Source: Bacteroidota bacterium (lineage in GTDB: Bacteria > Bacteroidota > Ignavibacteria > Kapaibacteriales > NICIL-2). From it: a stretch of DNA of 53,027 nt. The position numbers were made by a program, and so were the translations under genes. The notes below the pieces were generated by a model that was given only the letters and a program-made list of their open reading frames with translations, was not told the DNA's origin and made no database searches. Of this stretch, positions 2,406-51,914 are shown piece after piece. Every line of letters begins with the position of its first letter. Positions within the stretch are counted from its first letter, which is position 1. The stretch spans positions 1 to 53,027 of the forward strand of contig JAIBAE010000023.1 of assembly GCA_019695345.1 (NCBI GenBank), written 5' to 3'.

Positions 2406-3068
2406 AAAATCCTCCAACAGAGTTGTGAAAAAAATGAAGTATTACTACTATGATAATTAATATATACTGTGTTTGTATTGTAAAGTAAAATCGAGGATAC
2501 TAATCCATAAACTAAGGAAGGCACGTCCGATGTGCGTGAACCAAATGGTAACGCAAATCGTGTGCCTGATATAACCGATTCAGCAAAATTTGCTGAAGGG
2601 AAACTAACTTCCGTGTTTGGGAATAGTATCAACGTTCCATAAAATTTAGTGTAACTACCGCTTGTGCACAAAATGTCTTTCATTTCGGCACAAATTATCT
2701 GAATTATGTCAGTTGAGCCCTGCGAGATATCCCCCCGGACGGCTACGCAAGCATTGTAAATTGTATTGAATATGCTGCAACATGCTCCGCATTTTCAAAC
2801 AGAATAAACATTATAAGTGCTTATTCTGAGCCAACTTGACACACTCTATCATCTTTCCCCATACTCCCCAAAGTCCCCTACAGTTCTAAAGCCACCCTTC
2901 AGAACTTCTCGCAATATAACAGATGCCAAAATTTGGGCAAAGGTTTTTTTTCCGCTTTCCCATTATATTTCATTCACAATAAACGGTTTAGTAAGCAATC
3001 ATAACCCGTACCACTGCATGTTATCGCTTACTATACTTCTGTACACAAGATTTGGTTTCAAAACACGA

Positions 3069-3118
3069 GTGTTTCCCGCTATTGCCGCAGCACACCTTCT
3101 GCGCCGTCACCCGGGCGG
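3069..3118 (-). repeat. Family-2 repeat end, reverse orientation
   Basis: GTGTTTCCCGCT and TGCCG...CACC are the reverse complement of the family-2 right end seen at 3321-3346. They are followed by CTTCTGCGCCGTCAC and CGGGCGG, which recur almost exactly at 15003-15027. Together with 3275-3346 this forms an inverted pair about 280 bp across. Confidence 0.6.
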
Positions 3119-3274
3119 AATCAAACCGATTCAACTTCGCAACGATCCATGTGTAACGATGTGCTATTGTACCTAAATCATTACATTAAAATTTGTTTTT
3201 GAAAAATGCCGGATTACCAACATCTTCCTTGCACAGCAACTTTTGAAGAAAAAGAGCTTTCTGTTTCTCGTAAT

Positions 3275-3346
3275 GCGATGTACAACGCTTGGCTCGCACA
3301 GGGTTTGCACGTACCACGGGTGGCTACGGCGCACAGCGGGAACACC
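3275..3346 (+). repeat. Family-2 interspersed repeat
   Basis: Contains GGCTCGCACAGGGTTTGC, then TGGCTACGGCGCACAGCGGG and AACACC. The same order of blocks is found at 15130-15204 and 51744-51816, and inverted at 30182-30250. Confidence 0.75.
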
Positions 3347-3463
3347 ATATTTTCAGATTTATAAAGAAATACCAATTTGTACAAATGGAAGTAACCTGAA
3401 TTTTAAAACCGTGTTTGGTGTTATTTTCGCGTCTCTGCGTTTTTTTCACCATAACATTAACTC

Positions 3464-5834: not shown

Positions 5835-5848
5835 ACTACACGCCGCTT

Positions 5849-5867
5849 GGTGCGGTCAGGCGTTAGC
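5849..5867 (-). repeat. Family-1 repeat end
   Basis: GGTGCGGTCAGGCGTTAGC, the inverse of the GCTATCGCCAGACCGCACC end. It lies 6 bases beyond the stop of the minus-strand gene ending at 5874. No partner end was found nearby. Confidence 0.75.
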
Positions 5868-5873
5868 AATAAT

Positions 5874-8800: not shown

Positions 8801-9647
8801 GCCCTTTAATACCTTGCGATGTATAGTCAGTCCAGTTTCCAAATATCAATCTATCCGGCTCAATCAAATCCACGTCGCGCAGGTTACCGCGTGTTACTAC
8901 GCCCGGTGCAATGGGGGTTCCTTCCATTGCCAACCAAAAGTCAGGTACTCCTTGTGCAACGCCTCTATCGAATTGTTTCTCGGTACTACTATATCCAAAC
9001 GATGTAGCAATCGGAGCTCTATCATTATTCCCAATCTTCGTATCTATTAACATCAATGCACCAACTTTACGTGCTTTAGAAGTTGTGTTTAAAACAGTAA
9101 CAGTCATTCGTATAAATGCACCACTTGAACGCTTAACAGGCATCATGCTAAAGACAAACTTCATTGTGTCGCCATCGGTGAGTTTTGCAAAAGAGTTTGC
9201 ATTAATACGTGGTGTACCATTTACCGTATCTCTAAATATTCGTTGTGTTATAATAGGGTGTGGCGGCGGCGATACCAACGTAGCAGTATCTAATTCGTAT
9301 TGTAGTTGATATACAATATCATCAATACGAATATGGAAGTGCGAAGTATAGTTTACCGGACGCCCACTTGTACCGTCTTCTTTATAAATCAAAGATTTGT
9401 TTACAGGCGCAGTATAGTTTGTTGAAATAGAAAAATGTCCGTTACTTAACAACACCGGGTTCAATGCATACGGCGGCAACGCATCAACAATAGTAAGCGA
9501 TGTTTGTGCAATACTAACAACAGAAAATACAATAATCAGTATTACAATCGTATAAATACGATACATTGTCTCGCTCATAGTATTACAGAGCGTTCTGCGC
9601 GGCAACCCGGTCCGCTCCGACCCTCTGTGCGGAAGAACATACTTCAT
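5874..9647 (-). CDS. Large exported ASH-domain protein with T9SS sorting domain
   Basis: 1257 residues. The start at 9647 has AGGAG eight bases upstream, and its ATG overlaps the TGA of the OmpA-like gene (ATGA), indicating translational coupling. The N-terminus is unusual: MKYVL is followed by about 20 residues encoded by repeat-like DNA (9587-9638), and only then by the hydrophobic segment IYTIVILIIVFSVVSIAQ. The middle carries ASH/choice-of-anchor-D type beta domains marked by 'VCVGDTATGDWDAVNIGG', 'VCVNSSGTKSVKL' and 'VCVGNTIDTTIEIRNQGN' (roughly residues 600-1090). A possible cohesin-like region follows (about 1090-1190), then a T9SS type-A domain ending 'VVATTQIGTVSKPVTILH'. Last gene of a three-gene operon. 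Function unknown; probably a surface adhesion or scaffold protein. Confidence 0.87.
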   Translation of the reverse strand: MKYVLPHRGSERTGLPRRTLCNTMSETMYRIYTIVILIIVFSVVSIAQTSLTIVDALPPYALNPVLLSNGHFSISTNYTAPVNKSLIYKEDGTSGRPVNYTSHFHIRIDDIVYQLQYELDTATLVSPPPHPIITQRIFRDTVNGTPRINANSFAKLTDGDTMKFVFSMMPVKRSSGAFIRMTVTVLNTTSKARKVGALMLIDTKIGNNDRAPIATSFGYSSTEKQFDRGVAQGVPDFWLAMEGTPIAPGVVTRGNLRDVDLIEPDRLIFGNWTDYTSQGIKGLASTQWKERTASNLDYTDSAILLVWDEDVMGSGSTIVKASTEIGIVDSLSVDFGGGAPGGGGYDYGSGGFGMAGSGTCLSVEDVLEQPCGTPGYTPYSPDTLEAMFIVTNLDTVNTQNNVHLSVTNYPQGIVAGSVSGTVIPSTLSPAQTGVAVVSLVPMPRLQAQSYRVPVALLNSNNVPVLFDTIDVCVPGLQGVLTGVDKTYEPVCPQSVDTLDVQFKLKGKRCLEVITATLTGNPADVAQFSVINPLPLLSKADSITIVRVRYAPTVNNNTPTIGVVLQLRDYDVKKPGDTTNIVVFDTSFVTAPSREAEFLWARSTDTLDFGRICVGDTATGDWDAVNIGGCAVTILSGSTSVVTGSNYFAVAPANIFPSLVQRSKRDTIALLFTPQTAGTFIGMAIIKSPNAPFVDTLYLKGVADVPHVETLSNQLTIDTVCVNSSGTKSVKLTNPTACAVVVDSISVTSTVNGWNVSPKNRFVIPPNTSITLNVSGVFTLPGTYNANVTVHSTVGNVALQSDIVVITRTTQTATTLAYGDVLVDSTKHDTLKIYATGTDATIVSAITKAGLFASDYTIQLPSGITLPYTINSGDSLSVFVMFTPKDIEQRGAAITLSLNRNSPCAEFQTVQLNGRGTQPIIDVRSRTLALGRVCVGNTIDTTIEIRNQGNAPLNVTRIVASGNSNFTISPLDVPVVMPDSAKQVRVRYTPVDVGNHSTSLTIQSNGKWITATDTVLTLLATGVICGEISVDTINANVGELVEIPVRFKPLRNAVYTAEELVRIMNTSNATAMNLSLQYDSSLVRVNSFSTNNGMIRLQNSTVLQNTKSTSSLSLTNVSLEESSTIAMLRSDVLLSSVYQTPLRLSSALFANGFSDVTVHSGLLRAQYCAYDSRVVNTNAVNMILRVQQNTLHVYSQEQLTANVGIVNLQGEHVYTLYNGELTIGSQEFTLPDGIVNGVYLVVATTQIGTVSKPVTILH
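9587..9638 (-). repeat. Repeat-like DNA translated inside a signal-peptide leader
   Basis: On the minus strand this reads GCGGACCGGGTTGCCGCGCA in its core. The same core (GCGGACTGAGTTGCCGCGCA) occurs in the intergenic family-2-like copy at 28921-28990. Here it lies in frame just after the start codon of the gene ending at 5874, encoding residues about 4-23. Confidence 0.6.
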
Positions 9648-11788
9648 CGCAATTCTCCTTCTTCGTCTAACTCGGTATTTAGCGGAGTTGCTATCTCAAC
9701 AAACACACGTCTATTGTAAAATCGTCCTTCGGGAATTGTATTATCAAACAAATCAACTTCGCCCAGCCCTTTTGTATCTACAGCCACCGGTTTAATAAAA
9801 TCCGTGATGCTTTTCTCAACAGCATTAGCACGCGATTCAGATAAGCGTTGGTTATTTTTCTTTCTGCCAATGTAGTCGGTCATACCCTCAATATCAACAC
9901 TCGATGATGTTCTTATTCTTGAACGTATTAGCGATAGTATCTGGTCGTTATTACTTGCAATTGTAGATGCTCTATCGAAGTTAAACAACAACATACTGTA
10001 TCGTTCAATCAGCGTATCCCGCACAACCTGTGCATTCGCTCTCGACGACGTAAATGTTCGGCGTACAGGAATAGGTCTTTGTGCTTCCGTCACTCTTCCA
10101 TCATCGGTTGTAATCTTTACCGTTGCAAGTAATGGCTTAGTTGGGTCGTGAATTACAGCGTCCGATAACTTTGCTCGAACTTTATCGGCAGACGATTGTT
10201 TAGTAGTAAACAACACACTACCCGAATTATCCTTAATAGTATATTCTGCTTCTTTTACGGTACCTTGATATACAACTTCAGGTTGAAGTAATACTTCGCT
10301 TGGTGTTACTGTATTCTTTGCATTCCGAACGTATACAGGAGCAAGAATTCTTGGGTCGCTGGCAGTTATCTCAGCACGTCTGTTTTCTGTTCTTCCATCG
10401 TCTATTCTGCGCGTTGATACAATTTCTGGCAACTCACGTGAACGTGTTGTAATTCTATCCTCGCTTATCCCCCACACATCATGTAGATACTTCTTCACAT
10501 TAGTAGCTCTATTCATTGCAAACGAATTCTTTCCACTCTCATCTTTTGGCTCAACACAGCCGGTTACTGATAATGTTGTATTAGTATAGCGTTTCATACG
10601 CAAGCCGATGATGTTGAGTAAATGATGGTATACTGCAATCTGGTCGTTGGGTAAAGTTGTTTCGGTAAATGAGGAAGTATTACCTGATTGTAATGGTGTG
10701 TATCGTTCAGATAAATCTGCGCTTCCGCTTTCAAAAAATACGTATGGTAACAATGGGAGTATGTCTTGTGTTCTGTGTTGATTCACTGTTACTTCGGCGT
10801 AGTTCAACTCTGTACCATCTGTTTCAATGTTATGCACATCTAACAATGCCATTGGCGGTGGCATAACCTGAGCCACTGGTGCCTCTTTTTTGTCTTCAAC
10901 AGGTGGAGGTAACGGAGGTGGCGGTGGAGCTGATAGTACATACATCAACCCTGCACCAACACGTAACGAATGTACTTTCCAATCATTAATACTAATAACA
11001 TTTGAAAAAGAATATTGATACGATATTTCGGGGTTAAGAATAAACGATTCACCAAGCGGAAACATAGCTCCTATGCCTGCTACAGCCGATATTCTAATAT
11101 TATTTCCAGCAAGATGTCCATTATTATCTGTAAAGTTACCTGCCGCAATTCTTCTGGTGGTACTACCATCTACAAACGTTGCTCCTGTTGGCGATAGAAT
11201 GTGTTCTTCTTGTTCAAAAGCGTTTCTTGTTGTAAAGCCAACCGAGGGTCCTAATGCTGCATACCACTTGGTATCAAGATAATATCTCAACATTGCATCA
11301 AGTGTAACATAATCCAATGATACAGATAAAGCATGCTCGGTTGATAATGGCGTTGTTGAACCATCTTGCAATGCAATTAACGGTGTAACTGGATTTGGCG
11401 CTGTAAATGTCCCGTTTGCTTTATGATAATACAAACTTGGTACAAATGCTATACTTGGTGTTAACGGAATGTTTGCGTAATTCCCAAGTGTCCAACCTAA
11501 TGTTGTAGCATTTTCAAAACTACCGCACTCTAATACACCTTCGTTAGTTGTTAATGCTCCACGGTGCATATTTACTGCTGCGTTTGCATTAATGCCGGCT
11601 GCAAGTTTATTACCCGTTTGTGCGTTACTATACTGCATACAAACTGCAAACGCAACTAGCATCAAGAATAACTGCGTACGTTTATTTACACATGCTATCT
11701 TATGGTGGCTCGGCTCGCACAGGGTTTGCGCGCTTAAGGTTGTAGTATACTGTGAGGGTACCCCAAATGTTCTTTGTAATTGTATCAT
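9644..11788 (-). CDS. Outer-membrane protein with barrel-like N-terminus and two OmpA-type domains
   Basis: 714 residues from the ATG at 11788, which lies 4 bases after the upstream stop and has GGTGAT before it; a start further upstream would overlap the previous gene by 91 bases. Residues 9-31 are encoded by a family-2 repeat, followed by a signal sequence NKRTQLFLMLVAFAVCMQ ending SNAQ. The N-terminal ~270 residues look like an outer-membrane barrel ('GAGLMYVLSA'), followed by a Pro-rich linker (PPPPPLPPP). There are two OmpA-like domains: one with 'LPYVFFESGSADL' and 'TENRRAEI', and a C-terminal one with 'LLFNFDRAS', 'IEGMTDYIG', 'LSESRANAV' and 'NRRVFVEI'. The latter should bind peptidoglycan. 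Paralogue of the gene at 43082, which has the same position after a T9SS cargo gene. Confidence 0.88.
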   Translation of the reverse strand: MIQLQRTFGVPSQYTTTLSAQTLCEPSHHKIACVNKRTQLFLMLVAFAVCMQYSNAQTGNKLAAGINANAAVNMHRGALTTNEGVLECGSFENATTLGWTLGNYANIPLTPSIAFVPSLYYHKANGTFTAPNPVTPLIALQDGSTTPLSTEHALSVSLDYVTLDAMLRYYLDTKWYAALGPSVGFTTRNAFEQEEHILSPTGATFVDGSTTRRIAAGNFTDNNGHLAGNNIRISAVAGIGAMFPLGESFILNPEISYQYSFSNVISINDWKVHSLRVGAGLMYVLSAPPPPPLPPPVEDKKEAPVAQVMPPPMALLDVHNIETDGTELNYAEVTVNQHRTQDILPLLPYVFFESGSADLSERYTPLQSGNTSSFTETTLPNDQIAVYHHLLNIIGLRMKRYTNTTLSVTGCVEPKDESGKNSFAMNRATNVKKYLHDVWGISEDRITTRSRELPEIVSTRRIDDGRTENRRAEITASDPRILAPVYVRNAKNTVTPSEVLLQPEVVYQGTVKEAEYTIKDNSGSVLFTTKQSSADKVRAKLSDAVIHDPTKPLLATVKITTDDGRVTEAQRPIPVRRTFTSSRANAQVVRDTLIERYSMLLFNFDRASTIASNNDQILSLIRSRIRTSSSVDIEGMTDYIGRKKNNQRLSESRANAVEKSITDFIKPVAVDTKGLGEVDLFDNTIPEGRFYNRRVFVEIATPLNTELDEEGELR
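11705..11760 (-). repeat. Family-2 repeat inserted in a coding region
   Basis: GGCTCGCACAGGGTTTGCGC matches the intergenic family-2 core at 3290-3310, 15149-15169 and 51761-51781. It lies in frame within the OmpA-like gene, encoding residues about 9-31 between the start codon and the signal-peptide core. Confidence 0.75.
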
Positions 11789-11792
11789 AATA

Positions 11793-14700
11793 TCACCGAA
11801 GAATTGTAATTGGCTGTGTAAGTTGTATTGTACCGTTTTGCTGTAATGAACAATAGTATATTCCTGCCGGAAGCATTGATACATCTATGGTTTGCGTTGT
11901 GGCGTTTGTTGTTATCTGGCTAACTATCTCGCCAAGAATATCACGTATTACAAACTGTACCGGTTGCTTATTGGAATGATACAGTTGCAGTTGGTTACTA
12001 ACCGGATTTGGCATTAGTTGCATTACCATTGCATTGGTAGATGTAATTAAACTATTACGTCCGCCGCATAGTTGCTGGATATCGAGTAGAGCAGTTGCAG
12101 TATTTGTACAAACAGTATTATTGGTATCGCTTGAGAATGTAATCTGACTTTGAGTATCATCCCCACGAAGGACATCACACTCAACTCCAAACACATCATC
12201 GGGTGCAGTAGGATGTGTGTTCCAGTTTAGCACCAGATGCGTTTTACCGTACTCTTGCTGTATGATACTTGTTGCTGTGTTGATATAGTTTTTACCATTG
12301 AGATTTATTATAGCCCGTGGATGAAGTACCGAGCCATTATACACCATAATGTGTTTTGAGGTCTGGAATGAAGTTATAGCATCGCTTCTGCGGATTGGAA
12401 TTGTTATTGATGAAGCTACCGAAGACGACGCGTTACTTACTGCAAGATTCATGCTTTGCTGAGCAGTTACATTTAAGGAATACGATGATGAGCCAAGATT
12501 TGTAAACGCCACAATGCTACTGTTCCCATTACTACTAACAGTTGGAGCAATAACCATTGTAACTTGTGTTGAACGCCTTGGTAAAATTGTAATCTGATTA
12601 GTAGTACGAGTGTATCCGTTAACACCGGTAACCCGGATTGAATCCACGCGTAGTGTATCAAACGCACTCGGGTTTTCTAATACAATATCAAATGTAGTTG
12701 AATCGCCAACACAAACATTGAGTGCTTGCGTTAACGGTACATTAAACTTTAGTGTTCTGTTGCGCGGGGTAATACATAACTGCGTTATACAAACAGTATC
12801 TCCATCGTTTATAAACTGAACTGTAGCGCGTTCTTCGCTTTCGCGTTGTGCTGTAAAGTTGAGAATAATCTGTGCGCTTGAACCCGGGTTAACGCGAACA
12901 GGTGTAATAGTCCTTACAGCAAACGTGTTAGCTAACGTAGAACGAATTGTAACGTTGGTAATGTTAACGGGTAAATCGCTGGTGTTAAACACCTGCAATG
13001 GTATTTTAACGGAGTCTCCAACCGGGAGTGCAATGGTATCACAAGGCAATGTTGCTTGAGTTATAATAAATGCCCGAATCCCTTGCCCGGTAAGGGTTAC
13101 AGGGTATTGCCTATCGGCAATATGAACAAGAGCGCCTTCGTTATACAGCTTACGTTGTTGTGGTTTAAAGCGCACACATAATTGCAATGAGTCCTTAGGT
13201 GGAATGCGCACACTACCAACCGGGGAAACAACAGTAAATCCATCGGCAGGCGAAATCATTACGGAATCAACTACGGTTGTATCGTTGCCATCGTTCCGTA
13301 TTGCGTAAAAGCAAATTGTTGTATCCGTTTTAACTTTCCGTACTAAGAAATCTTGTAATGAGGTCAGTACACTTATACTTGATTTTATTCCAACGCCTTC
13401 AAGCCTTACGGTATCTGTCATTGCACCAACATCAAACAAAAGCAATGCGCTTCTGTTACCTATTGTATTAGGGCGGAAACGTACATCAATATCAAATGTT
13501 CCGTTGGCTTGCAGAACAATACTGTCCTGCGCATTGGTCAGACGGAACTCTGCCGATTGAATTCGTATGTTCCGAATCATTACCGGTAACAACCATGTGT
13601 TCTCAACTTTTACAACATGGCGTTTAGTTTCACCACCAATTTCCTGCTGACCAAAGTTTTCATCGTTAGCCAGGAATGGCTGAAACACTTCTACCGAAGC
13701 AACTGCACGGTTTCCGGTAACGCCGCCGGATACAACCGGAAGATTAAACGTATCTATACTGGCTATTTTATCGTATCCGGAATTTACAAGTTGATTAAAT
13801 GGTTCCCAAATACCGTTTACGTTTGTACTTGTTGGTAACGAGAACAATTCACATTCCGCTGTTGACGAAGTAGTAGTTGATTCCCCGCCAATTGCCATGT
13901 AGTAGTTTGTTGTATCTCGAACGCCGGCAATATGTAGCATCGGGAACTTGGCGCGTGGTGTTTGCATACGTGGCATTAATCTCCAACCACTTTTCACATC
14001 ATACCATTCGCCGCGGTTGGTTTGTTTATTGGTTTCATCTATACCGCCAACCATACGCGCAATGTTAGCACGGTCGGTAAAACCTGCGGCAAACCGTTGT
14101 TGAAACTGCGGAGGATTAGCACGTGCATCCCACGTTGTATTGGTGAGTATTTCTGTTGCAGGTGTAACAACATTCTCGCCGCACGCACTAAGAACAGTAG
14201 AGTCGTTAGTTGCGCTAACAATCATTGCTGTTGTATGTTCACTACGCGGAGTAGCCATATCACTTAACTTCTCAATAGCAAGTGTTGCAATGTTTATTCG
14301 CGATGTAACAGCAGTTGCAGTTCCGCTTTGTAATGCGCCACCTGTCTGGAATCTGCCGCCACTTACAACAATGTATCCATGTTTATTATAATACGCCGCA
14401 CAATTACCAGCAGCAATAGGAAGATTACCAACAGAACGCCATTGCCACACCCGTGTAGTTGCATCGTAACGCAAAACTTCTACGCTTGCAACCGATGCAT
14501 AATTGCCTGCGCTTCCGGAATACCCGCCAATGGCAAACACTACCGATTCCCCATTACTTTGCTTAACCGATACCAAGGCATGATATGCGCGTGCCTGAAG
14601 CAACTGGTTTCCTGTTTGCTTCCAGATGCCGTTACTAAAAATGTACGATGAGTTAGTAGCCGCACCATTAGATGTAACTCCTCCACACACCAACACTTCG

Positions 14701-14837
14701 CCCGTATGAAGCGAGACGCCCTTGTGTCCGCTTAACGGCAATGGCAACGATGCAACCGGTTTCCATTCAGGTTTTGTGGTTTGTGCAGAACTCCATACAA
14801 CGCACAATGTAATACCAAATAACAGCAGGTATTTCAT
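11793..14837 (-). CDS. Exported kelch-propeller/ASH protein with T9SS sorting domain
   Basis: 1014 residues with the signal peptide MKYLLLFGITLCVVWSSAQ. Residues ~35-390 contain kelch-like units with paired glycines and downstream aromatics: 'GEVLVCGGVTSNG', 'VVFAIGGYSGSAG', 'GYIVVSGGRFQTGG', 'MAIGGESTTT'. From ~395 there are ASH-type domains ('VVKVENTWLLPVMIRNIRI', 'VCVGDSTTFDIVLENPSAF'). The last ~85 residues are a T9SS type-A domain: 'MPNPVSNQLQLYHSN', 'DILGEIVSQI', 'LPAGIYYCSLQQNG'. First gene of the operon with the OmpA-like protein (4-base gap) and the 1257-residue ASH protein. No Shine-Dalgarno visible. Probably surface-exposed; partner unknown. Confidence 0.88.
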   Translation of the reverse strand: MKYLLLFGITLCVVWSSAQTTKPEWKPVASLPLPLSGHKGVSLHTGEVLVCGGVTSNGAATNSSYIFSNGIWKQTGNQLLQARAYHALVSVKQSNGESVVFAIGGYSGSAGNYASVASVEVLRYDATTRVWQWRSVGNLPIAAGNCAAYYNKHGYIVVSGGRFQTGGALQSGTATAVTSRINIATLAIEKLSDMATPRSEHTTAMIVSATNDSTVLSACGENVVTPATEILTNTTWDARANPPQFQQRFAAGFTDRANIARMVGGIDETNKQTNRGEWYDVKSGWRLMPRMQTPRAKFPMLHIAGVRDTTNYYMAIGGESTTTSSTAECELFSLPTSTNVNGIWEPFNQLVNSGYDKIASIDTFNLPVVSGGVTGNRAVASVEVFQPFLANDENFGQQEIGGETKRHVVKVENTWLLPVMIRNIRIQSAEFRLTNAQDSIVLQANGTFDIDVRFRPNTIGNRSALLLFDVGAMTDTVRLEGVGIKSSISVLTSLQDFLVRKVKTDTTICFYAIRNDGNDTTVVDSVMISPADGFTVVSPVGSVRIPPKDSLQLCVRFKPQQRKLYNEGALVHIADRQYPVTLTGQGIRAFIITQATLPCDTIALPVGDSVKIPLQVFNTSDLPVNITNVTIRSTLANTFAVRTITPVRVNPGSSAQIILNFTAQRESEERATVQFINDGDTVCITQLCITPRNRTLKFNVPLTQALNVCVGDSTTFDIVLENPSAFDTLRVDSIRVTGVNGYTRTTNQITILPRRSTQVTMVIAPTVSSNGNSSIVAFTNLGSSSYSLNVTAQQSMNLAVSNASSSVASSITIPIRRSDAITSFQTSKHIMVYNGSVLHPRAIINLNGKNYINTATSIIQQEYGKTHLVLNWNTHPTAPDDVFGVECDVLRGDDTQSQITFSSDTNNTVCTNTATALLDIQQLCGGRNSLITSTNAMVMQLMPNPVSNQLQLYHSNKQPVQFVIRDILGEIVSQITTNATTQTIDVSMLPAGIYYCSLQQNGTIQLTQPITILR

Positions 14838-15002
14838 AATAATAAAGGCGTAAATAAAACAAGTGGTGTATCCGTACAGATGTGTCTCGAGCCCATCGCA
14901 ACCTCTACCTTTGGGTGCAACAAATAGTAAAGGTGCGATAGGTCAACGAGGAAATGTAAATGCGAATTTCTGAGTGTTGGCTTCGGTCTACTGCCGAGGC
15001 AA

Positions 15003-15027
15003 CCCTTCTGCGCCGTCACGCGGGCGG
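15003..15027. repeat. Family-2 associated block
   Basis: CCTTCTGCGCCGTCAC followed by CGGGCGG; one base differs from 3095-3118. Preceded by CTGCCGAGG, as in the other reverse-oriented family-2 end. Confidence 0.6.
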
Positions 15028-15095
15028 GGCCTACCCTTAAGCACCGCAGTTGTAACTGGCTTGGTACAAATTAGAGAAGTTAACTGCACAACTCA

Positions 15096-15114: not shown

Positions 15115-15129
15115 AACTTCTCTCTCACT

Positions 15130-15204
15130 CTGCGACGCTGCAACGTGTGGCTCGCACCGGGTTTGCGCGCTGCACCGTTTGCTTCGGCACAGCAACGGGA
15201 ACCC
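15130..15204 (+). repeat. Family-2 interspersed repeat
   Basis: TGCGACGCTGCAACG, then GGCTCGCACCGGGTTTGCGC, then TTTGCTTCGGCACAGCAACG. It ends 14 bases before the stop side of the 1193-residue gene (15219). Confidence 0.75.
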
Positions 15205-15218
15205 AAAGCACACTCCCC

Positions 15219-18200
15219 TTACCGAACTACAGTCATTGGGGTGCTGAACTGTTCTTGCGGCGTAATAACGCGTACAAAGTACATTCCATCGGATATGAGA
15301 GCAGTTGAACATTGCACCGAGTGCATGCCTTGCTGCAATACGGAATTGGTTAGCTCCGTAACTATTTGCCCAAGTGTGTTTACAAGTACCACGCGTGTTT
15401 GGGCATCGTGCTGAAGTGTAAAATGAATTGTTGCTTGTGTTGATGCGGGATTGGGTATTACCACTATTGGATTTTCGGTTGATAGCCATGCACCTTTTTC
15501 TTCGTCAATACCAAGCATAAGGTTTGAAAATTTTACCCAACACCCGGATGTATTATTAAGCCCAATCGTTTGAATAGAAAATGATTTTGTAGATGGACTC
15601 TGCACTATAAGTTCTGCTTCTGTTTCTATGGATGAAACAGTTGCGTATAAAGAATCTTTCCCATTTTCGTCAGTTACTTTAATAACATAGAATGCAGATA
15701 GCGGGTCGGGGGATTTATTCCATCGTAGCTTAACTATACCTTTGTCAGTATAAAATCCTGTAGCATTTGAAGGTGGTGGTAATATTTTTTTATTGTTTAC
15801 AAAGCTATTAGGTGAGTAAACAAAATTAGTTGCTTGTTTATTATCCCAGCGTACCGCATAAATATAGTAGCCACATTCCATTAACGAATCGGAAAGAGTA
15901 TAAGAAAACGAACCGGTTTTTTCATTCACCGTTCCAATTCGGTAGCCATCGTAACCCTTATTATCTTTATCCAGATAGAAATCAACGAATGATTCATCTG
16001 ATGCACCTGAGTTATCCCAATTACAATTAACAGTTCGTGCAATTTGTACAGCCGAGAATGTGAAATCTGCCCTCTGTTTTACTAGTGACCAAATATGTAC
16101 TGAGTCGCCATTTTTTTTCCCAACAACTCCTACCTTCCACTGTCCCATCTCAGGATTTTTTAACACCCAGAGGTCAACATCATTAACTGATTTTGAAGCT
16201 GAAAAAATAATTAATGAATCTGTTGATGTTGAAGTAAATACTTTTTGAGTGGGCGAAACAAGGAATGATGCCGGTGGAGTTGCTGATTTTATTTCAGCAT
16301 AAGCATAATTAGTAGCTACATTAATAGTAAAGGGGATATAGGTAGTATCGTTTGCTTGAACTTCGTTCCCCTTCCCATAAAATGCTATTCCACCTAAATC
16401 TTTGATTGAGCCACTTTGTAGTCCCATGAATGATCGTGTCTCAGTGAACGGATTTTTGCTTATATCGACCCAGGCACTCCATACACCAAGCCATCCAAAG
16501 TTTAGGTCTACGGATATTTGAGTATTCCTCAGCATTGCCTGAACAGAAGAAAGACGTATAGGCAATCCCAATTTTGTATTGACAAGTTGAAAAAGAGGGT
16601 GATTCTTAAACAAGTCTGGTATAAAAAAATCTCCTTTAATAGCAACACTAAACACAAATTTTGGTAATACATTAATAGAACCATTTACTGTACCCGATAA
16701 AAGAAACTTATCGCCCCCAAGTTGTATAATGTCTGCGCCTACATTATTTAGTCCCGCATACATTAAAGGTTGGTTCAGATTAAATGCTAACGAGTACCCG
16801 CCTCTTAATTGCGCCGCCCAAACATCTATCTTACCCAAAAATCGGATTTTTCCATCCACGCCAATCTCTCCTAATTCATTGCCTTGCATTGTTCCTTCGG
16901 CTTCAAAAATTTGCCATTCGGTAACTTTACTTCCTAATTCTTGTTTAAGAAAATCGAATGCAGGAACTTGTTCCCAGTCGTCTCTATTAGCAAAAAACAA
17001 TGTACCTCGTAAAGTTTTGGGTCCTGTTTTCCAATTGCTAACTTCTGCTTCAAAACCTCTCCAAACACCAACATGTGCCGGAGGTGGTTCGGGAATAGGA
17101 ACAGGAATTCCACCACTCCCAAGCTTTGCTAAAATTTTAAATTGTTCCAGATCACCCTTAATAAAAGTACATCCCATACCTATATCCGAGAACATTGGCG
17201 CTTTAAGTACACCATCAAAGGCGAATCTTTCGGTAGGTTTATCATATGTAACAAGTAAGTTTTTTAAGCACCATTTATCAGAGGTAGGAACTCCTATATT
17301 GTTCAATTGCACTGCGGCAGGAAAACTCCAGCCATTTGAGGTTATCTTCATATCTCTAAAAACAACACCACCGGTATTATCAGAAGGATGAAGTATAATA
17401 TCACAACCATCGGAAAAAGTTTTGAATATCAAGCGTATGTCTGCTAACGCTTCAGTTGGTGAATTGGGGTCACCTATTACTCGTATTCTATCGAAAATAG
17501 GAGCAATACCAGCTAGAAAATACGCAGCTGCCCCCATACCCATCGGTACCGGGCTTGAAAAAAGCAAACTATCGTTTAATCGTAGCGTTGTTAGTGGAAG
17601 ATTAAAAACTTCAACCCCATTCATTAAACATTTACCGTCAAAATTTATTTTTGAATTATCAATCGTTGTATCTATTGATAAAGAAGCAACCTGAACAAAC
17701 TTCAGTGCATCACCAATAACTACTTCTGTACCTCCATCTAAATAAATATGATGTTCTAACAACCCACCAACAAATTTTGCCTTTTTATCGGTAGTTTTAA
17801 CTGTAAATATGTGCTTACCTTTATATACATATTTCCATTCTCTTCTTGGTACATTAATTTCGAATTCATTACTTTTTACCTGGCCAATGACACCGGTGTA
17901 TAAAGTAATATCCATGATTTCGCCTATATTTAGCTCACTATAAATCTGTTGACCTTGCTTCCCTGCATTACCAACCGATAAAGACTTTGCACCTGTTTTA
18001 CTATCTTCGGTGTAACGAAATTGAAATTCGAAGTCTTGGGTAATGTTTGTACCATTTATATCATTTGTCTGCACAAATTGCCTTGCAAAGTTTGCCCAGA
18101 TTTTTTGTGTTGATTTACCATAATCTTTAATAGCTAAAAATGCACTACAAGTATTTCTATCAACAGTACCTTTAAACTTATCACCAGGATTTCGTCCTTT

Positions 18201-18800
18201 ATAAACTGGAAGGTTAACGCTACTAACTTTATAAAAAGTTGCGCCGGCTGCAATTGCTTCATGGTGCCATTCGTTTCCTAATGTGCTACACGAAAATTGT
18301 GGCTCTCCGCCTACAATTTTCTCAATTTGCATTTGAAGTTGTCCAGTTGCAAAATAATACCACGTTGACTCTTTATACTTACTAACATTAAGTGCAACTT
18401 CACTAACAGAACTTTCATTTCCTTCAATCGATAACAACGCGTTACACAGATACTTGTCCTGTAGATTGGTTCTTATCAATGTAAGTTCATCTTCCCAAAG
18501 AATAGTTTTTGCCCCATCGCTTGTAATCAAACCAATATCACCAGAAATTTCGGAAGATGTTGGTTTAAGTGTGAATAACGTGCTACCAATACATAGGGCA
18601 CTAAACTTAACAACAGCACCTGCCGCCGGAAAATCTTTTGCGGTGTACGTTATTTTAACATATTGTGTCTCATCATCATGCTTTAGTACTTCTGCTTTAA
18701 CATTAGTGATTGTAGGATCTGCTCCGAATAAATTGCTATTAATGTAAAAAAACATAGAAAAAACAGACAAAACAAGACGGAAGAAATAACCGTTTCTCAT
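15219..18800 (-). CDS. Large exported protein of unknown function with Fn3-like and T9SS sorting domains (module 1)
   Basis: 1193 residues. The start is supported by GAGGA six bases upstream and by a signal peptide (LVLSVFSMFFYINSNLFGA). The protein is a clear paralogue of the gene at 21275: both begin with 'LKHDDETQYVKITYTAKDF'-like sequence and share 'PSDNTGG', 'KGNEVQANDTTY', 'NDGYRIGT' or 'YDGYRIGT', and 'CGYYIYAVRWDN'. A region near residues 1015-1090 resembles an Fn3 fold ('GIVKLRWNKSPDPLSAFYVI'). The last 85 residues are a T9SS type-A domain ('VIPNPASTQATIHF', 'LGQIVTEL', 'SDGMYFVRV'). I do not recognise the central ~900 residues. It is transcribed divergently from the TPR-LuxR gene at 19256, suggesting that regulator controls it. 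Confidence 0.85.
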   Translation of the reverse strand: MRNGYFFRLVLSVFSMFFYINSNLFGADPTITNVKAEVLKHDDETQYVKITYTAKDFPAAGAVVKFSALCIGSTLFTLKPTSSEISGDIGLITSDGAKTILWEDELTLIRTNLQDKYLCNALLSIEGNESSVSEVALNVSKYKESTWYYFATGQLQMQIEKIVGGEPQFSCSTLGNEWHHEAIAAGATFYKVSSVNLPVYKGRNPGDKFKGTVDRNTCSAFLAIKDYGKSTQKIWANFARQFVQTNDINGTNITQDFEFQFRYTEDSKTGAKSLSVGNAGKQGQQIYSELNIGEIMDITLYTGVIGQVKSNEFEINVPRREWKYVYKGKHIFTVKTTDKKAKFVGGLLEHHIYLDGGTEVVIGDALKFVQVASLSIDTTIDNSKINFDGKCLMNGVEVFNLPLTTLRLNDSLLFSSPVPMGMGAAAYFLAGIAPIFDRIRVIGDPNSPTEALADIRLIFKTFSDGCDIILHPSDNTGGVVFRDMKITSNGWSFPAAVQLNNIGVPTSDKWCLKNLLVTYDKPTERFAFDGVLKAPMFSDIGMGCTFIKGDLEQFKILAKLGSGGIPVPIPEPPPAHVGVWRGFEAEVSNWKTGPKTLRGTLFFANRDDWEQVPAFDFLKQELGSKVTEWQIFEAEGTMQGNELGEIGVDGKIRFLGKIDVWAAQLRGGYSLAFNLNQPLMYAGLNNVGADIIQLGGDKFLLSGTVNGSINVLPKFVFSVAIKGDFFIPDLFKNHPLFQLVNTKLGLPIRLSSVQAMLRNTQISVDLNFGWLGVWSAWVDISKNPFTETRSFMGLQSGSIKDLGGIAFYGKGNEVQANDTTYIPFTINVATNYAYAEIKSATPPASFLVSPTQKVFTSTSTDSLIIFSASKSVNDVDLWVLKNPEMGQWKVGVVGKKNGDSVHIWSLVKQRADFTFSAVQIARTVNCNWDNSGASDESFVDFYLDKDNKGYDGYRIGTVNEKTGSFSYTLSDSLMECGYYIYAVRWDNKQATNFVYSPNSFVNNKKILPPPSNATGFYTDKGIVKLRWNKSPDPLSAFYVIKVTDENGKDSLYATVSSIETEAELIVQSPSTKSFSIQTIGLNNTSGCWVKFSNLMLGIDEEKGAWLSTENPIVVIPNPASTQATIHFTLQHDAQTRVVLVNTLGQIVTELTNSVLQQGMHSVQCSTALISDGMYFVRVITPQEQFSTPMTVVR

Positions 18801-20965: not shown

Positions 20966-21274
20966 TGTGTTTGCTATCGCCAGACCGCACCGTACCTATA
21001 TATATTTCACACCAATCCTATGCGGAAAAGAACTTGTTCAATACTACCAAACGGTAATCGTTTTGTAGTTGTAGGTTGTACAATCTCGGCAAAATTGAGG
21101 ATGTTTATGTATCAACGTATGGTGCCGTCCGGCGATAGCAGATACTATAAAAGTGATAATATTTAGTGCTTTATTCTTTTACTTGTATCTGAGAATCAGT
21201 TAAGTATCAACAAAAGTAACAAGGGCTAATTCACTACTGTTGTACTTTTCTCCAAATACTATGAACTCACATTT
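20966..21274. other. 309-base convergent intergenic region
   Basis: Lies between the ends of the TPR-LuxR gene and the 1206-residue surface-protein gene. Most of it is one complete family-1 element (20973-21139). The remaining 135 bases show no gene or clear terminator. Confidence 0.6.
20973..21139. repeat. Complete family-1 element, 167 bp
   Basis: Ends GCTATCGCCAGACCGCACC (20973-20991) and GGTGCCGTCCGGCGATAGC (21121-21139) are 17/19 inverse. The core has CCTATGCGGAAAAGAAC. The left end starts 7 bases after the TPR-LuxR stop. Confidence 0.85.
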
Positions 21275-28649: not shown

Positions 28650-28656
28650 TGTGTTT

Positions 28657-28675
28657 GCTATCGCCAGACCGCACC
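28657..28675 (+). repeat. Family-1 repeat end
   Basis: GCTATCGCCAGACCGCACC, 7 bases after the stop at 28649. The core TTATGCGGGTAAGAAC follows at about 28711; no matching right end. Confidence 0.8.
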
Positions 28676-28768
28676 ACACATTACACTCCGTACCAACGTT
28701 CTTATGCGGGTAAGAACGCACCATTACAACAAAACCTATATCGAGGTAGTTAAGCATTATTATTTCCT

Positions 28769-28857: not shown

Positions 28858-28920
28858 TACTCGCTATAATAAACATAACTAAGAATGTTGAAACAGTTCA
28901 TCGTAGCCCTTGTAAACTAT

Positions 28921-28990
28921 GCGACGCAGAACGTTTGGTGCGGACTGAGTTGCCGCGCAAGCGGGTTGCTACGGCAGATGTGGGTAACCC
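28921..28990 (+). repeat. Family-2-like repeat
   Basis: GCGACGCAGAACGTTTGG matches the family-2 left side. It continues with GCGGACTGAGTTGCCGCGCA, which matches the translated copy at 9587-9638, then GGTTGCTACGGCAG. It ends 5 bases from the prfB stop. Confidence 0.6.
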
Positions 28991-28995
28991 AATAG

Positions 28996-30094
28996 TTATT
29001 CTTCCATCATAAGTAAATATGCCTTGATAAGTTCATCAAGGTCGCCATCCATAACACTGTGAACATCGTTAATTTTTGTTTCTGTGCGGTGGTCGTTCAC
29101 CATGGTGTAGGGCTGAAAAACGTACGAGCGAATCTGGCTTCCCCACTCTATACTTTTCTTGGTTCCTTCTATTGCGGCCTTTGCAGCAAGTTGTTCTTCT
29201 AATTGTTTTTGGTAGAGTTGAGACTTAAGCATTTTCATAGCTCGCTCGCGGTTTTGAAACTGCGAACGCTCTTGCTGACAACTAACAACAATCCCCGATG
29301 GAATGTGGCGCAGACGCACAGCTGTTTCAACTTTGTTCACATTCTGCCCACCTTTACCGCCGCTTCGGAAGGTATCCATTTCAACATCAGCCGGATTAAC
29401 TTCGATGTTGATGTTATCATCAATTTCGGGGTACACATACACCGATGCAAACGATGTATGGCGGCGCGCGTTACTATCAAACGGAGATATACGCACTAAT
29501 CGGTGTACGCCGTTTTCTGCTTTTAAATATCCATAAGCGTATTTGCCTTGTATCTCTAGTGTAACAGATTTTACTCCGGCAACATCGCCTTGTTGTTCAT
29601 CGGCAAGATACACTTTGTAACCGTGGCGTTCTGCCCAACGTGTGTACATGCGCATCAGCATTTCTGCCCAATCCTGTGCTTCGGTTCCGCCGGCACCCGC
29701 ATTAATGGTTAAGATAGCATTGCGCTCGTCGTTTTCACCCGATAAAATTTTTCGTATTTCTGTTTCTTCTAATGATTTTTCGGCGGATAGTATTTCTGCA
29801 TCTATGTCTTGCTCCATCGTAGCATCGCCAGCTTCTTCGGCAAGTGTTATCAATGCTTCGGAGTCATCTACTTTTGCGGCGGCTTGTTCGTACAAATGCA
29901 CCCATTCTTTTAATTCGGCAATTTCTTGCATTACTTTTTGTGCGGCAACATTATCATCCCAAAATCCGGGTTGCTCGCTTTGCTGTTCGCGGTCGGCAAT
30001 ATCAATTAACTTTTGGTCAATGTCAAAGAAACCTCCGCAGTTGTGCAACGCGTTCTTTGAATTCCGTTATTCGTGTTTTTTGTGGTTCAAACAT
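28996..30094 (-). CDS. prfB: Peptide chain release factor 2 with programmed +1 frameshift
   Basis: RF2 recognises UGA/UAA stop codons and triggers peptide release on the ribosome. Reading starts at ATG 30094; codon 24 is an in-frame TGA (30025-30023). Just before it is CGG AGG TTT CTT, and the base after TGA is C, giving the classic slip site CTT TGA C with a Shine-Dalgarno-like GGAGG upstream. Skipping one base (30025) joins 23 codons to the main frame for 365 residues, the normal family length. The main frame shows the stop-recognition tripeptide in '[15 protein letters not shown]' and the catalytic GGQ in '[18 protein letters not shown]'. Low RF2 slows termination at the TGA and favours the shift, so the gene autoregulates. 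No strong initiation Shine-Dalgarno is visible. Confidence 0.96.
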
Positions 30095-30181
30095 AATTCT
30101 ATACTTGTGAAGATACTATTTAAGCGGCGCGAAAATACGAAGAATACAGAAGTTACGACTCCGAGGTATCAAATGCTGCTT

Positions 30182-30250
30182 GGTTTTCCACCTCTGCCGA
30201 AGCGCACGTTTAGCACGCAAACCCGGTGCGAGCCAAACGTTCAGCGGCGC
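30182..30250 (-). repeat. Family-2 interspersed repeat, reverse orientation
   Basis: On the minus strand: AACGTTTGGCTCGCACCGGG, then TTTGCGTGCT, then GCTTCGGCAGAGGTGG. It lies between the M48 protease stop (30263) and the prfB start. Confidence 0.75.
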
Positions 30251-30262
30251 ATTGGAAAATAT

Positions 30263-37997: not shown

Positions 37998-38077
37998 AAC
38001 TACATGATTAGTACTGAAATGGTATGAACTTACGTAGCAATATACCGCAGTTTTACTAAATGTTTCGGGTATTTTTT

Positions 38078-38096
38078 GCTATCGCCAGACCGCACC
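38078..38096 (+). repeat. Family-1 repeat end with core
   Basis: GCTATCGCCAGACCGCACC, then CCAACCTATGCGGGAGAAAG. Located 81 bases upstream of the 920-residue gene start and downstream of the 131-residue gene, so not immediately beside a stop. Confidence 0.75.
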
Positions 38097-38161
38097 GCAC
38101 AACATTCTACTATTTCACCAACCTATGCGGGAGAAAGTCGATACTTAAGAAAACATGGTTC

Positions 38162-41900: not shown

Positions 41901-43085
41901 GCGGATTCATCATCATTCAAAATAATCGGTAATAATGTTCCATGTATTATTGATACAAACTCAAGTAAACCAATTGAACTTAGTTTTTCACCTAAGCACA
42001 CCGGAATTAATTCGGTTCTCTTGGAGATAATTACACCATTCGATACACTGCATCAGGTTATTCAGGGATTTTGTTTACCATCCTTAGTAAAAGTTGAGAC
42101 CCCAATCATTGATTTAGGAAAAGTATGGATTCATACCCGCAAAGACACACTTCTAGCAATTACATTACGCAATGTCAATTCTGATACACTTACCATTGCA
42201 AATTCATCAATTGTTTCTGCCTCTCAGAATTCTCCATTTTCCATTACTCTTGGTGGTGGTGGATTTCGTTTAGCACCAGGCCAATCACGTACTATGATAA
42301 TTTCGTTTGCACCTAATCACATCGGTCGTGTTACCAGTACAATTGAATTTGAGTATTCTGGCTATGGTTCACCTGCAAAAATTCACTTATCCGGTGAAGG
42401 ATTTGAGGACAACGTTTCGATTGATGTAAGTTTAAGAGATACATCTGCCTATCCCGGAAATGAAATTTCAATACCTATTTCCATTACAGGTAATAAGAAC
42501 TTAACTCAATCAGGAACTAAAAATCTCCAATTAACTATTCAAACAAACTCAACGCTACTCACAACAGAAAACAGCGTTGTTAGTTCAAACATATCCAACG
42601 ACACGCTTGTTTTTTCAATTAATACTACTCTGCCACAAGATAATTCTGGAATACTATCAACACTAAAATTCAACACAGCACTTGGCAATGATACCTCATG
42701 CAACATTTCAGTAATTAAAATTACTTCCAATAATCAACCACTTACATTCAGACAGAAACCTTCGCAATTTACGTTACAAGGTGTGTGTAAATCCGATGGT
42801 GGCAGATTATTTTCTATAAGTGGAAATGTAGCCATACATGCTATGTATCCTAACCCGGCAAGTTCAGAAAGTACCTTAGAGTTTGAAACAATTGAGCATG
42901 GCATAACAACTATTTCAATTTTAGATGTGTTAGGTAATACTGCCTATACATTACTCAAACAAGAGTTGCCCGCTAAAGTACATACTCTCCAAATCCCAAC
43001 GGATAATCTCTCTAATGGCAGGTATTATGTAATTATCAAAACACCCAGTGTAACCAAAGTAACACCATTACAGGTGCTAAAATGA
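38940..43085 (+). CDS. Exported vWA / seven-repeat SBBP propeller / ASH protein with T9SS sorting domain
   Basis: 1381 residues from the ATG at 38940, where the signal (FVHTFLLFYVSVVMIVINV) begins. A von Willebrand A domain has a MIDAS-like motif 'DASVS' at residues 94-98 and 'VILFCTDGRYG' later. An Ig-like region follows, then seven consecutive ~61-residue SBBP units (about 505-920) such as 'DSLGNIVIAGSFSS', 'DKLGNIYITGQYTG' and 'DYNGNIYVAGSFSG', enough for one seven-bladed propeller. Two ASH domains follow ('LGKVWIHTRKDTLLAITLRN'), then a cohesin-like region and a T9SS type-A tail ('AMYPNPASSESTLEF', 'DVLGNTAYTL', 'SNGRYYVII'). Its TGA overlaps the ATG of the OmpA-like gene (ATGA), so the two are co-translated. 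Likely a calcium- or metal-dependent surface adhesion protein (inference). Confidence 0.89.
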   Translation: MRTSFVHTFLLFYVSVVMIVINVQSQTIDISQINIQQFPTVRARLLTFDKNGTFIPHTASTLRLKENGNSNVITSVTCNNTSSSQPISVAIGIDASVSMNYAEQLDSPLQLTFTSVNTLLSKVQHNESEFTLQTSDAIPQIIQDATTIRSNISAGLTTIKTASGNNFSQQLLHPVTGLIAVASALHNKKVILFCTDGRYGVLPEADVLQCITLCRLQNITFCSLIYTSPNTDATGLRTSLRTIADSTGGYIFENIVSTQDALNKAAALQQLLQGATPCTIEWQSDYACHSEIRTIELTSNSLQAKAESFYLVQENTVSRLQFSTPYIHFYNSKPGVKRDTIITVTALYKPYNVTSVTTSNPAFSVSPTSFTLGVGQQIQLTVSCKPTDSSYTWSQISFTNSTCSSTLYGSCGFTGKKPIKPSLQVLFPNGKEKIIPGLDTTITWSGIPLTDTVQIDYSTDKGIRWNMITNKATGGTYQWEQIPSDSSDNCLIRVQQLAPFFDRGWARHCGSDSEDRAYAVSSDSLGNIVIAGSFSSTMNIGNTTITSNGGTDVFISKYNPKGELLWSKKAGGVNNDVAKSLAIDKLGNIYITGQYTGNATFDTVKVTGTSDYNIFLAKYTKDGSIVWIQTMGSDAYDHGNSLALDRFDNLYLAGDIAGRTQFSDTVVFSQGSWDSFIAKYTVDGKLQWVRVDGGNEWDESISIACDTSGNVYSTGVVEGSATFSSTTVRSIGSTDIFVAKYDSTGSMQWVKNFGSIYEDKGTGICYDYNGNIYVAGSFSGISIFDTLRATSKGQLDICLAKISTDGDVIWVKSAGGNLDDEPLSVCYDTTNTISITGYFNTKAVFSTDTIVSQGKSDIFIAAYSLLGDLHSIRREGSDSADRAQSIIVTPDNHTHVAGYCASNIIIESENLVSEGSDDAIVWRIGQRPLQLDVSDVAWSLVKPNVHITDTIHIGTIPLGVSKDTIVTNVITNVSNYPVKVNTWKIIGADSSSFKIIGNNVPCIIDTNSSKPIELSFSPKHTGINSVLLEIITPFDTLHQVIQGFCLPSLVKVETPIIDLGKVWIHTRKDTLLAITLRNVNSDTLTIANSSIVSASQNSPFSITLGGGGFRLAPGQSRTMIISFAPNHIGRVTSTIEFEYSGYGSPAKIHLSGEGFEDNVSIDVSLRDTSAYPGNEISIPISITGNKNLTQSGTKNLQLTIQTNSTLLTTENSVVSSNISNDTLVFSINTTLPQDNSGILSTLKFNTALGNDTSCNISVIKITSNNQPLTFRQKPSQFTLQGVCKSDGGRLFSISGNVAIHAMYPNPASSESTLEFETIEHGITTISILDVLGNTAYTLLKQELPAKVHTLQIPTDNLSNGRYYVIIKTPSVTKVTPLQVLK

Positions 43086-45229: not shown

Positions 45230-45236
45230 ATTTTCT

Positions 45237-45393
45237 GCTATCGCCCGACAGCACCGCACGGAAGGTACAAACTGAACATTCCTATGCTGATAAGTACCAT
45301 CAACTACGGTTAACCATTGATCGTGGATGTGTGTTCTCTCTCCCGCAGGTGATAGGTGTGTACAATGTGTGGTGTGGTGCGGCTTGCGTTAGC
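45237..45393. repeat. Complete family-1 element, 157 bp
   Basis: GCTATCGCCCGACAGCACC (45237-45255) and GGTGCGGCTTGCGTTAGC (45376-45393). Starts 7 bases after the OmpA-like stop; core CTCTCCCGCAGGTG in reverse orientation. Confidence 0.8.
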
Positions 45394-48676: not shown

Positions 48677-48682
48677 ATCTCT

Positions 48683-48854
48683 GCTAACGCCGGACGGCAC
48701 CGTGCGTTGTACTTTACAATAGTAACATTGTGCCGCTCAGTTCCTCAGCATCAATACACCATCTATCGCGATAAAAATACTCCGCTTGCAGAAGGTTCTG
48801 TTCTGCAAGCGGAGGTTGTGTTTTTCGTAACGTGCGGTGCAGTCCTGCGATAGC
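48683..48854. repeat. Complete family-1 element, 172 bp, bridging two convergent stops
   Basis: GCTAACGCCGGACGGCACC (48683-48701) starts 6 bases after the TPR stop. GGTGCAGTCCTGCGATAGC (48836-48854) ends 11 bases before the tnaA stop. Contains the terminator at 48780. Confidence 0.85.
48780..48825 (+). terminator. Strong Rho-independent terminator
   Basis: Perfect 14-bp stem CTCCGCTTGCAGAA / TTCTGCAAGCGGAG with a 7-base loop, then TTGTGTTTTT. Serves the TPR gene; A-rich sequence on the left may serve tnaA. Confidence 0.88.
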
Positions 48855-48865
48855 GGAATACACAA

Positions 48866-51022: not shown

Positions 51023-51039
51023 AGGTACTATACACATTT

Positions 51040-51058
51040 GCTATCGCCGGACGGCACC
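51040..51058 (+). repeat. Family-1 repeat end
   Basis: GCTATCGCCGGACGGCACC, 17 bases after the stop at 51022. No right end before the Rieske gene. Confidence 0.75.
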
Positions 51059-51205
51059 AAGCCGCTTGCTATACACACTGTTGCATTGCCGTTAAATACG
51101 ACATCTTCGTATTATTTTTTGTTCATTGTTGTAACAATACACAAAAGGCGTCATACATTGCCAGTGAATGTACTTCAACTTTATCTTTTACAAGGGAGTT
51201 TAATA

Positions 51206-51700: not shown

Positions 51701-51741
51701 AAACGGATGTATCAAGCAAACTGATACGTCCGTTTGTTTTT
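51701..51741 (+). terminator. Rho-independent terminator of the Rieske gene
   Basis: 14-bp stem AAACGGATGTATCA / TGATACGTCCGTTT (one wobble), 7-base loop, then GTTTTTT. It starts 33 bases after the stop. Confidence 0.88.
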
Positions 51742-51743
51742 TA

Positions 51744-51816
51744 TGCGCCGCTGTACCGCCTGGCTCGCACCGGGTTGGCGCGCTGAAGGAACGTTTCGGC
51801 AGTGGCGGGAAACACC
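51744..51816 (+). repeat. Family-2 interspersed repeat
   Basis: GCGCCGCTGTACCGCC, GGCTCGCACCGGGTTGGCGC, then CGTTTCGGCAGTGGCGGGAA and ACACC. Full forward-oriented copy between a terminator and the next gene. Confidence 0.75.
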
Positions 51817-51914
51817 TTATTAGGGTTTTGTAGTGGTGAAGGCAACTACCACATAAGCAATATTGCCGGTAGAAATAATGGAACAACAGTTTTTTGTTAT
51901 CTACCGGAGTATAT

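Follow-up and report, generated by a model that had tools for sequence, protein, structure and literature searches.

Two coupled genes in a genome of the order Kapaibacteriales raise the question of whether short interspersed repeats, which in this genome lie almost entirely between genes, can become part of the leaders of exported proteins, and by what route they would get there. The genes lie in a 53,027-nt stretch (assembly GCA_019695345.1, contig JAIBAE010000023.1; hereafter the window), which is contig C10 of a 4.56 Mb assembly in 163 contigs. They are an OmpA-like gene and, behind it, a gene for an exported protein with Ig-like domains, second and third in a minus-strand operon that opens with a kelch/ASH gene. 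An earlier note, made from the letters alone, had proposed that related repeats are translated in both leaders. We found a copy of one hairpin repeat family in each, directly behind a conserved start codon, and the explanation we favour, at a probability of roughly two in three, is that the repeat inserts close behind stop codons and that at coupled junctions such insertions may be tolerated in the length-tolerant n-regions of signal peptides.

Repeat copies in the two leaders

Profile models of the repeat were used in two versions. First-pass models had both leader copies among their seeds, which makes their E-values (1.6e-10 and 1.8e-11 for the two copies) circular, and the longer spans of 11708-11779 and 9547-9631 come from these models. 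With models rebuilt without any window sequence (leave-one-out), the matches were shorter and weaker and still significant, and the reversed window, scanned as a control with the same models, gave no match. The features of the operon are the following.

11793..14837, minus strand: upstream gene with kelch/ASH domains and a type IX secretion system (T9SS) C-terminal tail; it ends in a TGA placed 4 nt ahead of the OmpA ATG
9644..11788, minus strand: OmpA-like gene (domains OMP_b-brl_2 and OmpA) whose product, counted from the conserved ATG at 11788, has 714 aa
11708..11741, plus strand: subfamily-A core (hairpin half), antisense to the OmpA-like gene, about residues 17-27; leave-one-out E 8.8e-9
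11624..11668, minus strand: hydrophobic signal-peptide core of the OmpA-like protein, FLMLVAFAVCMQYSNA/Q
9655..9660, minus strand: Shine-Dalgarno-like AAGGAG upstream of the 9647 start; the first G of GGAG is at -11, close to the modal position in the genome
5874..9647, minus strand: coupled third gene, exported, with HYDIN/ASH Ig-like domains; its ATGA overlaps the OmpA stop and its start position is conserved in relatives
9591..9626, minus strand: subfamily-B core, same strand as the third gene, about residues 8-19; leave-one-out E 1.9e-8
9504..9557, minus strand: hydrophobic signal-peptide core of the third protein, TIVILIIVFSVVSIA/Q

The OmpA-like leader reads MIQLQRTFGVPSQYTTTLSAQTLCEPSHHKIACVNKRTQLFLMLVAFAVCMQYSNAQ and that of the third gene MKYVLPHRGSERTGLPRRTLCNTMSETMYRIYTIVILIIVFSVVSIAQ; TFGVPSQYTTTLSAQTLCEPSHHK and TLCNTMSETMYR are examples of the repeat-bearing leader peptides. 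In the former the subfamily-A core match lies at 11711-11732 and weaker similarity continues to 11779 (residue 4), and in the latter weaker similarity spans 9547 to 9631. The repeat had been placed at residues ~9-31 and ~4-23, and although a copy is present in both leaders, the independently supported parts are narrower (see the list): the core half of each copy, about 35 nt, is secure and the outer halves have diverged. The two copies are related, as had been proposed, but they belong to different subfamilies, lie in opposite orientation relative to their genes and are translated in different frames. Both sit in frame between the start and the hydrophobic core (h-region), and the n-region of each protein would thereby be lengthened by a repeat-derived stretch of roughly 25-30 residues, rather than the ~20 suggested earlier, ahead of an intact h-region. 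The paralogue at 43082 does have, as described, a clean, short signal (MSSLTLLVLLLLSCTPIVNAQ) without an insert. The OmpA-like protein has 39 matches in its own genome, a large paralogous set often paired with proteins carrying T9SS tails.

The repeat unit is a GC-rich hairpin of about 65-70 nt, supported by covariation and present in several hundred copies in the genome. A genome search at up to 3 mismatches returned 190 matches for the subfamily-A core (TGGCTCGCACCGGGTTTGCGCG) and 122 for the subfamily-B core (GGAGCGGACCGGGTTGCCGCGC), against 0 for each reversed core; the latter, a 22-mer, was taken from the third gene (9597-9618) and is exact in 10 other places. In a 66-copy alignment the core stem covaries: two of its pairs show 15 and 32 double-sided changes (47 in total), and the covariation score is 0.257, as compared to 0.100 in shuffles and at most 0.053 when slid. 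Downstream of this stem there is a GC-UUCG-GC hairpin, and the unit has more than one stem. A search of the window against Rfam gave no family match, and among 30 relatives scanned with the element model confident copies were found only in G002 (2 matches, best E 1e-18), with single borderline matches in four others. Per frame, 60-89% of the copies are open, versus 37.5% of random intergenic 67-mers, and their translations are basic (mean net charge +2.0 to +3.7).

A stem that covaries in this way could mean that the junction hairpins are regulatory RNAs tuning translational coupling in the operon, the added residues being a mere side effect. Their position is compatible with such a role, since they lie within 15 nt of stops, the zone in which E. 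coli REPs, themselves often found behind stops, are reported to stall ribosomes (PMC12306157). However, in neither gene is the leader RNA more stably folded than shuffled sequences (z about -0.25), the outer arms have decayed in both copies and the orientation is opposite at the two junctions, so that we regard this explanation as improbable.

Start codons in the relatives

The starts were compared with orthologous operons in metagenome-assembled genomes (MAGs) of Candidatus Kapaibacterium and Ignavibacteria, namely G030 (54-55% identity), G016, G008, G017 and G002, plus further genome contigs. At the OmpA junction the window reads CGG TGA TATT ATG ATA C and G002 reads CGG TGA TACC ATG ATA C, with equal spacing and codons, while the stop-to-start spacing is 5 nt in G030 and 2 nt in G016. 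The start of the third gene overlaps the OmpA stop (ATGA, GTGA or TAATG) in G030, G008, G017 and G002, and likewise in L166, L168, L169, L170 and L173. The earlier description of both starts as firm and coupled to upstream stops is thus borne out by their conservation at the same junctions; the Shine-Dalgarno sequence it ascribed to both is found at 9647, where AAGGAG sits at the genome's modal spacing, but not at 11788, where the stop-TATT-ATG junction is nevertheless conserved. Reading the orthologous leaders by eye revealed the repeat in none. Since the relatives share these junction starts and have repeat-free leaders, the copies are insertions directly behind conserved starts.

These genes would then still use their ancestral start codons, with repeat-derived residues placed ahead of an intact h-region. 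A competing explanation is that the repeats form an untranslated junction whose frame is open by chance, the true starts lying downstream (MSET or MYRI in the third gene, an unusual codon in the OmpA-like gene). Copies are usually intergenic, as this would predict, and downstream ATGs are present in the leader of the third gene and in two further leaders described below (C55 and C2). Accidental open extensions are also to be expected of an element that is so often open, and they were seen before cytosolic genes, an aldehyde-dehydrogenase-like gene on C144 and a gene on C95. In the OmpA-like gene, however, there is no in-frame ATG, GTG or TTG between the copy and the h-region (a TTG and an ATG occur only inside the core), and translation of its copy is therefore hard to avoid, being escapable only via an unusual start. 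Moreover, the upstream starts are conserved with relatives, two of the five repeat-bearing leaders have a Shine-Dalgarno sequence at modal spacing, and the downstream ATGs of the third gene (codons 24 and 28) and of the C2 gene have none. Judged from sequence, translation through the repeat appears close to forced only in the OmpA-like gene, whereas in the third gene two downstream ATGs could serve. On balance we consider untranslated junctions unlikely, albeit with an appreciable chance of being correct, and we infer that the upstream starts are the ones used, that the proteins are still exported and that the insertions are close to neutral.

A few observations concern the comparison itself. 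The length of the n-region varies among orthologues, with long ones free of any repeat in L169, L170 and G030. We dropped the suggestion that the OmpA-like gene once began at a GTG that has become GTA (residue 36), because the G030 alignment proved to be one codon off. L169 is a contig labelled Bradyrhizobiaceae that carries a Kapaibacteria-type operon and is probably a mislabelled MAG, and in G002 the orthologue of the third gene occupies two overlapping frames (C96:713-4337), likely through a frameshift in that assembly.

Placement across the genome and further leaders

The census of copies covered 1.93 Mb, or 42% of the genome, of which 1.22 Mb were long stretches of large contigs and the remainder surrounded listed copies; a further 392 kb were scanned separately. 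Of 294 copies in the former, 271 were intergenic, 10 partly overlapped a frame and 13 lay in an open frame, and 31 of the 32 copies in the latter were again intergenic. No convincing case of insertion into a gene body was found among the 294. Position statistics show a preference of the family for stop codons: in convergent spacers 32 of 56 copies lay less than 10 nt from a stop, as compared to 8.8 expected under uniform placement, and in tandem spacers 35 of 146, with 8.7 expected. Copies adjacent to starts were depleted (1 within 10 nt of a start versus 12 expected). The two leader copies, 12-13 nt behind the upstream stop, are near the usual place of the family, except that the next gene has already begun there. 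The other copies mapped in the window are listed below.

30172..30262, minus strand: full-length intergenic subfamily-A copy (reference)
51738..51822, plus strand: full-length intergenic copy
28914..29006, plus strand: full-length subfamily-B copy, directly behind the stop of the gene at 28996-30048 (minus strand)
15125..15207, plus strand: intergenic copy that follows the stop of the gene at 15219-18800 (minus strand) by 11 nt
14979..15055, minus strand: intergenic copy, head-to-head with 15125-15207
3270..3360, plus strand: intergenic copy
3055..3126, minus strand: intergenic copy, head-to-head with 3270-3360

The last four form two head-to-head pairs, each within one spacer, and overlapping or close opposite-strand pairs occur elsewhere too (e.g. 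C25:88471-88626 and C25:107325-107487). Another repeat family in the window, TTTGCTATCGCC-RGACSGCACC, may be REP-like or terminator-like and has copies mostly within a few nt of stop codons (5839-5869 on the minus strand, 20970-20996, 21113-21142 on the minus strand, 28654-28680, 38075-38101, 45234-45260, 48680-48706, 48831-48858 on the minus strand and 51037-51063).

The search for other in-frame copies, which the earlier note had called for, yielded three additional leaders, on contigs C2, C55 and C78, bringing the total to 5 of 294 copies and indicating that the phenomenon is recurrent. The C2 gene has the leader MKTQQNYPIHKG...NGNPLRVSGRACAATLSAPTRLRLPHGMVSVVVMMLILVASTLTAQ, with a strong Shine-Dalgarno sequence and a start co-located with those of G030 (MKAIVFF...) and G015 (MKHCKEL...), both without the insert. 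The leader of the C55 gene reads MNNQNINMGTPPLPKQPQLRGNSVRAKRFATHCG..., its start being conserved with G002. In the C78 gene (MIPATAAAILQRRHTGGNVAYSVAILCVVYCTFCIEAHAQ) almost all of the n-region consists of the repeat, and a GTG is the one start available further downstream ahead of the core. With 64 bits the C55 copy is a strong match, and those in C2 and C78 are weak and partial (28 bits each). Other matches in open extensions (C22, C52, C95, C136 and C144) were rejected, as the gene seemingly starts downstream or the extension opens at a far-upstream TTG or GTG. In the C2 gene, which encodes a VIT/vWFA-like protein (leader at G000:C2:3048-3234), the ~30 codons before the repeat have no match elsewhere in the sampled genome.

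All five in-frame cases are signal-peptide genes, as compared to 63 of 264 stop-start-coupled genes (p 6.8e-4) and 29% of all genes (p 0.002), both by heuristic calls. We propose that a lineage-specific hairpin family has spread in this genome, strongly favouring the nucleotides that immediately follow a stop codon. At coupled junctions the stop and the next start coincide or are at most a few nt apart, and because the start adjoins the targeted site an insertion there would end up within the next gene, just past its start codon. Such a copy would survive only if the opening codons of that gene specify the n-region of a signal peptide, since this region tolerates a change in length and the element is poor in stops and basic in every frame.

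That every in-frame case is an exported protein and that the added residues are mostly basic might also suggest an adaptive extension, which would delay or redirect the export or assembly of outer-membrane or T9SS-associated proteins. Yet the relatives manage without it, lengths and frames vary among the cases, and n-region tolerance is enough to explain the pattern without any specificity for export function; we hold adaptation to be very improbable. Quite improbable, too, is a combined role in which the hairpin family is a portable module recruited repeatedly into coupled junctions of exported proteins, its RNA hairpin and basic residues jointly tuning re-initiation and signal-peptide behaviour.

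Several points weigh against stop-proximal insertion with n-region tolerance as set out above. Starting at either of its two downstream ATGs, the third protein would have a signal peptide of ordinary, short length. The C2 copy, lying ~110 nt past the upstream stop, misfits stop-proximal insertion by that distance, and the 62-codon leader of this gene includes sequence beyond the element, while in G002 the leader of the C55 orthologue is already long and repeat-free. No target-site duplication was identified in comparisons with orthologues of 36-63% identity, none of them a close empty-site allele. No mobilising enzyme was identified for the repeat either: the genome has four Y1_Tnp (RAYT-type) matches, no copy occurs in the ~3.2-3.4 kb loci around them, and these genes were dropped as its partner. 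Finally, the in-frame cases are few (n=5) and come from one repeat-carrying assembly compared with relatives outside its genus, the sample was partly picked around known copies, and gene and signal-peptide calls were home-made.

Known repeats and the significance of the leaders

Small repeats fused in frame are already known, and the Rickettsia palindromic elements (RPEs) and RU-2 in a Yersinia signal peptide are precedents. RPEs (Ogata 2000, 2002, as summarised in PMC10969869) are ~150 bp elements of which nearly half lie in genomic open reading frames (ORFs), many in unrelated metabolic genes. The likeness to them, first drawn in the earlier note, holds for the apparently translated in-frame fusion of short open-frame repeats, here in two leaders of the window and three others. 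By description, it fails for length (about 65-70 nt here as opposed to ~100-150 bp) and for distribution, because the copies described here are almost all intergenic, hugging stop codons, with none in a gene body and the in-frame cases all in signal-peptide leaders.

In Yersinia YPO1552 a mobile repeat of 168 bp, RU-2, supplies residues 1-30 of the predicted signal peptide, and the signals of that protein's relatives are unrelated (Delihas 2007, PMC2759123). There too a small repeat contributes residues at the front of a signal peptide, but as part of the predicted signal peptide itself, whereas here the n-region appears lengthened, the h-region remains that of the host gene, several cases are independent and the start codons are conserved in relatives. 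The ERIC/RU consensus (127-168 bp, enterobacterial) is set apart by description from a repeat of about 65-70 nt in the Kapaibacterium lineage. Like REPs, the repeat forms hundreds of short GC-rich intergenic hairpins, many just behind stop codons; unlike them, as far as descriptions rather than sequences were compared, it has a longer unit with more than one stem and, in the ~3 kb loci examined, no copy beside a RAYT-type gene. The MITE-like QMITE repeats of Coxiella are also short and occasionally fused in frame (PMC5896051); they have terminal inverted repeats and direct repeats, which may set them apart. The repeat thus fuses in frame like RPEs and sits like REPs, and we assign it to neither, because the high ORF share of the former was not found among the 294 copies, nor the RAYT association of the latter in the loci examined.

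The automatic gene caller used here shifted the repeat-containing starts downstream, and this serves as a warning that automatic start calling will do so with such starts. The leaders point to a third kind of site at which small bacterial repeats may become protein, neither the gene body, as in RPEs, nor the core of the signal, as in RU-2, but the length-tolerant n-region, which would come within reach through the repeat's targeting of stop codons, the place where coupled genes begin. A simple rule of this sort would tie together insertion preference, operon compactness and signal-peptide tolerance, and may be applicable to any repeat-rich genome.

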